Source: Bdellovibrio sp. (GTDB lineage Bacteria > Bdellovibrionota > Bdellovibrionia > Bdellovibrionales > Bdellovibrionaceae). From it: 64,000 nucleotides of DNA. Below the pieces are notes generated by a model, which was given only the letters and a program-made list of their open reading frames with translations, did no database searches and was not told where the DNA came from. The position numbers and the translations under genes are program-made. The stretch spans positions 1-64,000 of the forward strand of contig JACMRL010000039.1 of NCBI GenBank assembly GCA_014376435.1, written 5' to 3'. Below, one piece after another: positions 8,333 through 28,198 of this stretch (positions within the stretch are counted from its first letter, which is position 1; each line of letters opens with the position of its first letter).

Positions 8333-9525
8333 TTTTCCGAAAGGTCTACTTTTTGCCCATTTAAAAATAACGAATTTTTTTGCGCTACGCCGTCTCGGCC
8401 ATCATCACCTTCGACTCCTTTTACACCTTCGCCACCGGGCTGGCCGTTTTTCATCAATCTGCAAGGGTCTCCGCCTGTTCCAAGTCCTGCCGCGCCGCCC
8501 GCTCCACCGCGACCACCAACCTGACCTAATCCTTTTAAACCTGCCAAATTAGGCGAACTTACTTTCAAATTTGCGTCCCATAATTTAATTGTTGCACGAC
8601 CCGAGTTACCACCATTTTTTCCGATTCCTCCAGGAAATCCTTGCGCGCCTCGGCTGCCGTCTTTACCCTCACTTCCTTCCTGCGCACAGACATTTTTGTA
8701 AAAAAGTTGGTTTGGCGATACTTCAAAAACAACAAGCGGCATACTTCCGTCATCACCTTTGGCACCACGCAAAGTATCATCTGGCTCACGCGCTGCTTTT
8801 CCGTGACCACCATTTTCGCCAACCATCGTCACATTTAATTCTCCGCTGGCGGTGAAAATTTCGATTTGTAATAAACCTCCCGCGCGGCCTTCTTGTTCAA
8901 ATCCAGCTCGTTGATTGAGTGGAAAAGTTTGAATTGTACCGGTTGAGGATTGTAGATTTTCGATTTTTACTGAACCTGAATAGTCTTCTAAGTAAAGATG
9001 AGTTTTTTCTTCCATCCGTAAACTTTGAATATAAATATGTTTTGTTTTAGCGTTTAATTTGAATTTTTGCGCTAAGTTAAAATCCTCACTTAATTGCAAA
9101 TTAAGTACGGGTAAAACTTCGACGTCTTCTAAAACTTCTTTTTGTGCATTTAGAAATTGATAGCTAATTTTTACCTCTCCCACTAATGACTCTTTCCACG
9201 TGCGTGAATCATCTAGGCGAATAATCGTTTGCATTGAATTTTTGTTTTCGCTTAGCTCAGTTTTTTTTAAAATGATTTCGTTTGGCCAGTGGCTAGGAAA
9301 ATGAAATTGAACTTCTTGAAATGATCGACCGTTTTGCACGACATACTCGTAGCTGAAAACTTTTACGATTGGCTTGTCTGCCTGTTGTTCAATCGCGGGC
9401 TGTTGCAACTCAACAACCTCAACCGGCTTTACTTCTGCGGGGGCGGCTTCGTCGCCCTTCTTTTTTACTTTCATGCACGACGATAAAATAATAAATACGC
9501 TGACTAACCAAATCTTATGTTTCAT
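8329..9525 (-). CDS. Lipoprotein with collagen-like glycine repeats
   Basis: The 398-residue protein has a signal peptide ending in LSSC (lipobox), then an Ala/Glu/Pro/Lys linker (residues about 20-50) and a beta-rich middle. The C-terminal third contains Gly-x-x runs such as [17 protein letters not shown] and [19 protein letters not shown]. These resemble short bacterial collagen-like tracts, with interruptions that contain two Cys. Collagen-like tracts form trimers in other bacteria; that is inferred here. It ends by overlapping ddl tail to tail. Surface location is likely but unproven. Confidence 0.6.
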
Positions 9526-11296: not shown

Positions 11297-11346
11297 AAAA
11301 AAGAAAGGGCGACCGATGGATCCCTTGCGGGTGTTGTCGATCGCCC
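11297..11346 (-). terminator. Intrinsic terminator of the structured RNA
   Basis: On the minus strand GGGCGATCGA (11346-11337) pairs with TCGGTCGCCC (11316-11307) through ten pairs including one G-U. The apical part contains CCC-GCAA-GGG, a GNRA tetraloop. TTTCTTTTTT follows at once (11306-11297). On the plus strand the G-U becomes a C-A mismatch, which indicates minus-strand transcription. Confidence 0.85.
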
Positions 11347-11401
11347 CTATGACGCTACGGCGGAGGTTTAATTGGCCTCGTACCGCGTCTAGCTAGTGCG
11401 G

Positions 11402-11446
11402 CTAAAAAGCCGACACCTCCGCCATTGTTATGTCATATAAACTCAT
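11402..11446 (-). CDS. 14-residue micro-ORF inside the structured RNA
   Basis: ATG at 11446 is preceded by AAAGGAGGTG, nearly a full anti-Shine-Dalgarno complement, with GGAGG 7 nt from the start. The peptide is MSLYDITMAEVSAF, followed by TAG within a small CGGC/GCCG-type hairpin (GGCT-TTTT-AGCC). Such a strong site in front of such a short frame suggests a leader peptide or a functional micropeptide. No similarity to a known leader peptide (no run of one amino acid) is seen. Confidence 0.55.
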   Translation of the reverse strand: MSLYDITMAEVSAF

Positions 11447-11486
11447 AACACCACCTCCTTTCCAACCGTTAGAACGGCTTAGTAGA

Positions 11487-11515
11487 AGAATAATGGATAA
11501 ATACGGTTAGCACAA
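11487..11515 (-). promoter_or_regulatory. Sigma-70-like promoter of the structured RNA
   Basis: On the minus strand TTGTGC (11515-11510) and TATTCT (11492-11487) are separated by 17 nt. Transcription would start near 11480, exactly at the base of the first hairpin of the RNA. The elements are moderate matches; their position relative to the RNA structure is the main support. Confidence 0.5.
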
Positions 11516-27980: not shown

Positions 27981-28198
27981 AAAAGTTTTGAAATATTCTT
28001 CACTTTATCTGAGCTAACTTGAACGGATTGATGATTTTGATCTTGAATGGCCATGTAGACCTCTTCACGATGAATTTTTGTATCTTTGGGGGCTTCAATG
28101 CCTAAGCGGACTTGCTTCCCTTTAATCTGCACCACGCGAATCTTGATGTGATCATCGATCGCGATGCTTTCTCCCAACTTCCTTGTAAGAACGAGCAT
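27968..28198 (-). CDS. csrA: Carbon storage regulator CsrA
   Basis: This RNA-binding dimer acts on GGA-containing leaders. It begins MLVLTRKLGESIAIDDHIKI, has VRLGIEAPKDTKIHREEVY, and keeps the key Arg residues (Leu-Thr-Arg near the N-terminus and Arg44 equivalent). At 76 residues it has a somewhat long tail. Its own leader carries ACAAGGAG (28212-28205 on the minus strand), a good CsrA site that overlaps the ribosome site, so autoregulation is likely. A sigma-28 promoter lies about 50 nt upstream. It is grouped with fliW as in many flagellated bacteria. Confidence 0.95.
   Translation of the reverse strand: MLVLTRKLGESIAIDDHIKIRVVQIKGKQVRLGIEAPKDTKIHREEVYMAIQDQNHQSVQVSSDKVKNISKLLKPE

Follow-up and report, generated by a model that had tools for sequence, protein, structure and literature searches.

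Location and layout of the element

The window, by which we mean the whole 64,000-nucleotide stretch of DNA analyzed here, carries on its minus strand, at positions 11297-11480, a compact RNA with a promoter, a 5' hairpin, a near-perfect Shine-Dalgarno site (SD1), an open reading frame (ORF) of 14 codons, a long stem and a terminator. It is flanked by a HIT-domain gene and an aldehyde dehydrogenase gene (Aldedh, Pfam), both on the same strand, and is present as a single copy in its own 2.76-Mb assembly, where the other matches to our covariance model R2 (described below) have E values of at least 0.88. The promoter boxes, start hairpin, ribosome site, ORF, stem and terminator listed in a first-pass annotation can each be read in the sequence, as can the two occurrences of GGAGGT and the one of ACCTCC that it reported: the former lie at SD1 and at 11420-11414, and the latter, the complement of GGAGGT, at 11367-11362 (-). 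The features are as follows.

11487..11515 (-): sigma-70-like promoter, read directly (TTGTGC 11515-11510, 17-nt spacer, TATTCT 11492-11487)
A11480 (-): probable transcription start, placed by visual alignment with the HD100 start 535,188 (APsRNA2, PMC3627812 Table 2)
11464..11479 (-): H1, 5'-terminal hairpin; 96% of cells paired and two-sided changes at 6/6 pairs in 25 copies
11452..11461 (-): SD1, AAAGGAGGTG, complementary to the 16S tail over an extended stretch, assessed by duplex energy against background starts
11427..11449 (-): H2, start-codon hairpin, GUUAUG 11449-11444 with CAUAAC 11432-11427, assessed by partner-swap tests
11402..11446 (-): 14-codon ORF, MSLYDITMAEVSAF, ATG 11446-11444 and TAG 11404-11402, frame conserved
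11414..11420 (-): SD2, GGAGGTG, beginning 16 nt ahead of the stop, with GGAGG 8 nt away from the last sense codon
11357..11425 (-): H3, SD2 arm 11425-11415 with downstream arm 11367-11357, enclosing the stop; minimum-energy fold and swap test
11399..11412 (-): H4, CGGCU-UUUU-AGCCG around the stop codon; two-sided changes at 3/5 pairs, 75% of cells paired
11297..11347 (-): intrinsic terminator, hairpin 11347-11306 with GCAA loop and T-rich tail 11305-11297

Boxes resembling the -10 element were seen by eye at a similar distance in many relatives, and in 48 of 68 elements a T-rich tail downstream was detected with a simple pattern. Folded as RNA, the 184 nt reach -76.1 kcal/mol, compared with -54.5 (sd 4.55) in 200 dinucleotide shuffles (z -4.75), none of which folds as well. 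This minimum-energy fold has the start hairpin in another register, and another inner stem, than the versions supported by relatives, which are GUUAUG/CAUAAC and CGGCU-UUUU-AGCCG; H4 is absent from it.

Distribution of the element and its homologue in HD100

By plain blastn (E <= 1e-3), the element was detected in 24 of 98 other genomes, most strongly within the same genus. Likewise by blastn, 17 of 36 loci fetched via relatives of the neighboring HIT gene carry it; these are labeled Bdellovibrio, Pseudobdellovibrio, Bdellovibrionaceae, Pseudobdellovibrionaceae or Bdellovibrionales, with one 'Oligoflexia bacterium' and one 'bacterium'. The covariance search against relatives that had been proposed as a check recovered homologues in which the helices and the frame are kept. 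For this we used two covariance models, R1, built from 25 aligned copies (alignment A1), and R2, built from 69 copies. R1 has matches in 50 of the 66 genomes of the family and in 63 of 290 from the phylum, and R2 matches 131 of 368 phylum genomes, an upper figure given that matches were inspected in part and that L116 (in a repeat), L205 and L210 are false by eye. Each matched genome has one R2 match except for two (G031, G139), which have two each. When the 16 family genomes missed by R1 were searched with R2 at lax settings, one (G005) gave no match and 15 gave weak matches (best E 0.0038); the best weak match was viewed by eye in 14 of these 15, that of G042 lying outside the sequence viewed, and none had the layout of the element. 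Three nearly complete genomes from the same genus or family (G003, G047 and G060) have no convincing copy, and going by these searches they are probable losses of the element.

In the genome of B. bacteriovorus HD100 (G045), R1 and R2 place the element at 535,185-535,280(+), with 85.8 bits for R2. Karunker et al. (2013) list a small RNA, APsRNA2, at 535,188-535,321(+), with a length of 134 nt (PMC3627812 Table 2), and base 535,188, its published start, directly precedes the first pair of H1. That the coordinates of G045 correspond to those published for HD100 is supported by a c-di-GMP-I riboswitch at 1,073,868-1,073,951(-) in G045 (L134:5869-5952), which falls inside the published merRNA at 1,073,741-1,074,185(-) (PMC3627812). 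Judged by its position, strand and start site and by the covariance-model match, APsRNA2 is the same RNA gene. The minus-strand RNA proposed earlier, with a promoter, an ORF and a terminator of its own, is strongly supported, and its HD100 homologue begins at a published start site.

In attack phase APsRNA2 was reported at 8,869 RPKM, 43-fold above the 204 of growth phase, and it was described as a non-coding sRNA for which genomes beyond B. bacteriovorus gave no significant homology (PMC3627812). This attack-phase-specific expression is published for HD100 alone. The available text of that paper describes no ORF, SD pair or family, all three of which were found here, and our search of the literature on APsRNA2 turned up only PMC3627812 as naming it and nothing on its function.

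At gathering thresholds, Rfam 15 yielded no matches in the window; permissive searches gave mcrA for the window (14.5 bits, on the opposite strand, where 57.6 are needed) and MicX as the best hit for the HD100 copy (22.4 bits, where 75 are needed). The first-pass statement that no matching family is known thus stands for Rfam, but the HD100 homologue had been listed as APsRNA2 in 2013. Apparently, then, this is an undescribed RNA family that is common to many related bacteria. What had been seen before is the gene in one species; our searches of the literature and of Rfam showed neither the family nor its ORF, its double SD or the covariation of its hairpins at start and stop. An attack-phase sRNA from 2013, regarded as non-coding and as restricted to a single species, thereby becomes a family spread over the phylum, with an anatomy that is clear and open to testing.

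The SD1 site and its accessibility

For the following comparisons the false match L116 was removed and near-identical rows were merged, leaving 70 distinct elements; L121 and L132 were further removed from the analyses of H2, H3 and H4 and of SD1 strength and accessibility. The 16S tail, GGATCACCTCCTTTCT, was read in three relatives, a search of the window's own assembly for 16S having given no match. Pairing of SD1 with this tail is predicted to yield -19.2 to -26.0 kcal/mol in 68 elements, compared with -17.4 for the best of 297 background ORF starts taken from the same stretches as the elements. The spacing between SD1 and the start varies from 6 to 10 nt, GGAGG lying 7 or 8 nt from the start codon in 58 of 70 elements.

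SD1 reads GGAGGTG in 48 elements, GGGGGTG in 21 and GGTGGTG in one (n=70), and these variants bear on the idea, raised in the first-pass annotation, of a CsrA-binding RNA. A CsrA-titrating RNA with two GGA sites would agree with the two such sites in the window RNA and with the csrA genes present in the window's genome and in HD100. However, the GGA of SD1 is not conserved, being GGG in 21/70 and GGT in 1/70; the change from A to G is one that anti-SD pairing tolerates, and the GGAGGTG context and the spacing to start and stop are kept as for anti-SD pairing. We regard CsrA titration as extremely unlikely. The csrA gene of the window itself lies at 28043-28198 (-) (PF02599, 89.9 bits).

A free and a paired SD1 had both been envisaged from the repeated GGAGGT and its complement, and a two-state site is possible. 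In the 5' part alone the site is predicted to be about half open (0.56). For the longer transcript the prediction over 68 elements is a mostly paired site, its mean unpaired probability being 0.27 in the whole RNA and 0.29 in slightly shorter stretches. Pairing of SD1 with the terminator tail was seen in predicted folds, and its advantage is slight: -9.29 kcal/mol compared with -8.72 for dinucleotide-shuffled tails, 31 of 48 tails being better than the shuffled mean.

The mini-ORF and a second SD-like block before its stop codon

The homologous ORFs have 11-17 codons, apart from one of 21 (70 distinct elements). In a larger set of 107 distinct elements, from which L205 and L210 were left out, a start followed by a second GG[AG]GGT or GGAGG block was found in 85 with no frame condition imposed; the remaining 22 had no start or no block by this pattern, several of them having GAGGTG. 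The distance from start to block takes eight lengths between 20 and 41 nt and is 2 mod 3 in 83 of the 85, and in 78 of the 85 the block is followed 16 nt later by the first in-frame stop. As judged from these distances, the reading frame is conserved.

The second block, SD2, is rare at the ends of other ORFs. GG[AG]GG stands 16 nt before the stop in 65 of 70 elements and in none of 84 background ORFs, and among 297 ends of background ORFs a single one carries an SD-like site that matches the median strength of SD2. The glutamate at codon -5, which SD2 overlies, is encoded by GAG in 62 of 62 cases, while the ORFs of the window use 208 GAG and 840 GAA. Since the spacing of SD2 to the stop equals that of SD1 to the start, a ribosome that has the stop codon in its A site would be placed opposite SD2 just as it is opposite SD1 at initiation. 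The last codon lies 33-48 nt from the start in 68 of 70 elements, a distance that leaves space for a second ribosome at the start.

As held-out material we fetched 40 of the R2-only matches, that is, elements absent from the building of R1 and R2 yet found with R2; L205 and L210, which look false, and L206, which the pattern misses, gave no SD1 with ORF by our pattern, and merging of repeats left 33 distinct ORFs. SD2 occupies its standard place in 21 of these (some with GAGG), is one codon nearer the stop in four and is missing from eight, counts to be read knowing that model matches are selected by similarity to a core that includes SD2. Five of the eight belong to families f17 and f27. On this evidence SD2 is common in the family and not essential to it, some distant members appearing to be without it.

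Four members of f17 and f27 with no clear SD2 (L197, L198, L201 and L204) were seen by eye to keep strong start and stop hairpins, and the start hairpin of L197 covers part of SD1. In genus g62 (L187, L188, L190, L193 and L194), also by eye, a T-tract directly follows the hairpin that holds SD2 and the stop; there the SD2 hairpin may serve as a terminator in its own right, to be disrupted by a ribosome translating through it.

Two further ideas about the stop were set aside. Exclusive use of RF1, suggested by the lack of TGA stops in the first 70 elements, was dropped when 5 of the 33 held-out ORFs proved to have TGA, and programmed frameshifting at the stop was considered, the 8-nt spacing of SD2 being one that fits initiation.

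Covariation in the start and stop hairpins

The sequences of the helices differ widely among relatives. By eye, H2 takes the form GUUAUG/CAUAAC in the window's genus, CUUGGU/ACCAAG in some relatives, GUGGG/CCCAC in f17 and GUACUA/UAGUAC in f13, and in H3 the four bases before SD2 (e.g., AGGC, CGGU, AGCC, AGAU, UAGA, AACA) covary with the downstream strand. When partners were exchanged between elements in 5000 permutations, none was as good as the true pairing for H2 (-7.13 vs -4.65 kcal/mol, 54 distinct pairs), H3 (-14.86 vs -13.49, 68 elements) or H4 (-5.46 vs -3.41, 67 elements), results that are inflated by relatedness, one inherited change being counted many times. The same test on the 33 held-out ORFs also gave 0/5000 for each helix (H2 -8.68 vs -5.00, H3 -9.90 vs -8.68, H4 -4.66 vs -2.77).

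Other measures are less clear-cut. H2 has no two-sided change among the 25 close copies, and on average 31% of foreign H2 partners outpair an element's own; for H3, the true stem outdoes all 20 shuffles of the downstream sequence in only 31 of 68 elements. Among five whole-structure measures on the 25-copy alignment, the number of pairs with two-sided changes was reached by 17 of 500 shuffles and the number of pair types by 178 of 500. Support from covariation is uneven. The H1 loop was also considered by eye as a pseudoknot partner and was unconvincing.

The downstream strand of H3 is C/U-rich, reading ACCUCCGCC in the window and ACCUUCGCC in HD100, and raises the possibility of a dual-function or translation-gated sRNA acting in trans, in which translation would open H3 and the freed strand would pair with the SD sites of other mRNAs. 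The strand is a mimic of the anti-SD, paired to SD2 in most elements, and the attack-phase-specific expression of APsRNA2 in HD100 (PMC3627812) would suit such a regulator. However, it covaries with its partner around SD2, and no further conservation was seen by eye. We consider a role in trans unlikely.

The encoded peptide

Since the frame is conserved, we asked about the peptide. Across 18 independent close pairs we counted 35 nonsynonymous and 9 synonymous single changes, a ratio of 3.9 to 1 where 3.14 is neutral, in addition to 21 multi-hit nonsynonymous codons; the variable codons -14 to -11 have 16 nonsynonymous and 2 synonymous changes. L110, L114, L120, L121 and L132 were left out of this test, in which RNA constraint on third positions could hide some selection. 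There is no detectable purifying selection on the peptide, within the limits that RNA constraints set to the test.

These counts weigh on the first-pass suggestion of a micropeptide mRNA, according to which the peptide, mostly of 12-17 residues, would be the product (a signal, a regulator or a small inhibitor) and the RNA structure would only set its expression. Start, frame (83/85 distances) and stop are conserved as this would require, close relatives share the recognizable core DITKAEV, and 44 of 70 elements end in Ser, a preference suggesting that the C-terminus of the peptide may matter. But the lack of purifying selection (35 vs 9) argues against it; moreover, DITK and AEV fall on an arm of H2 and on SD2, residues shift with their pairing partner, and distant peptides, such as MTSFPSTEVRPT, have almost only EV in common. 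The mRNA part of the suggestion has thus fared better than the peptide part, and a micropeptide as the product strikes us as improbable.

Neighboring genes and control in cis

The genes that follow the element bear on whether it is the leader or attenuator of a downstream gene. A same-strand gene of the aldehyde dehydrogenase cluster comes next in the window's genus and in many relatives, a CheA-like gene (a label from sequence reading) comes next in most loci of the HD100 genus, and in g62 the SD2 stem directly precedes a T-tract, all of which speak for a leader. On the other hand, the window and HD100 copies end at their own terminators, downstream neighbors vary among families, and the nearest downstream ORF of at least 80 aa is on the opposite strand in 5/5 loci of f13, 2/4 of f17 and 4/11 of f4. 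Because neighbors vary among families and 11 of these 20 downstream ORFs are on the opposite strand, a leader function is very unlikely. The switch acting on a neighboring gene in cis that the first-pass annotation had offered is likewise disfavored, by the element's own terminator and the lack of synteny across families.

Ribosome engagement as the proposed conserved task

In our best reading, to which we give somewhat less than an even chance, the element is a stand-alone mini-mRNA of the Bdellovibrio lineage for which being engaged by ribosomes would be the conserved task, the peptide being mainly a by-product. We arrive at it because the ribosome contacts and the frame are conserved while the peptide is not. 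The transcript would arise from its own promoter, with H1 at its start and its own terminator at its end; the very strong SD1 would capture a 30S subunit, H2 would open, and the mini-ORF, mostly of 12-17 codons, would be read. In most members the ribosome would then melt H3 and, once at the stop, have its anti-SD opposite SD2, spaced as in an initiation complex, and SD2 could hold, or re-clamp, the terminating ribosome on the RNA. Such a clamp at the stop is physically plausible, because in E. coli depleted of the recycling factor unrecycled ribosomes are reported to stay bound at stop codons, where they block those that follow (PMC7538156).

The purpose would most likely be the sensing or holding of ribosomes in the non-growing attack phase or, alternatively, the keeping of the RNA or its released strand in a translation-dependent state. 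Going by figures in PMC3627812, APsRNA2 of HD100 reaches 8,869 RPKM and the SRP RNA about 340,000. Bulk storage of ribosomes is unlikely, as the published RPKM is too low to hold many of them, and because of this low abundance we would favor sensing or a translation-dependent RNA state over mass storage.

More doubtful is the broadest form of the proposal, namely that the family represents a new bacterial RNA class across the phylum, a ribosome dock with a maximal SD at the start and, at the stop, a second SD that re-clamps the same ribosome, both SDs being guarded by covarying hairpins; translation of an otherwise arbitrary peptide would be the signal through which the cell reads or holds its ribosomes in attack phase. 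An ORF whose frame and ribosome contacts are conserved, and whose peptide is not, is in itself an unusual case. Should SD2 indeed hold terminating ribosomes, the element would offer a natural system for anti-SD contacts at termination, as well as a way to ask how a predator that is not growing deals with its ribosomes ahead of prey entry.

Comparison with known systems

The lambda bar minigene is a very short ORF that exerts its effect via translation rather than via its product. The axe-txe mini-ORF, which has two codons, acts in cis (PMC8708949). With both of these the element shares a very short ORF of which translation, rather than the product, is proposed to act; unlike axe-txe, it has mostly 12-17 codons, its own terminator, a second SD at the stop, and a start and a stop that are both paired. 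SgrS/SgrT, RNAIII and other dual-function sRNAs that contain a small ORF resemble it in being small structured transcripts with an ORF, whereas the ORF of the element fills the conserved core and its peptide is not conserved. Finally, attenuator leader peptides such as those of tnaC and the erm leaders are likewise encoded by a short ORF with hairpins around start and stop, but the element, in contrast to these, has no conserved downstream gene across families and no conserved peptide.
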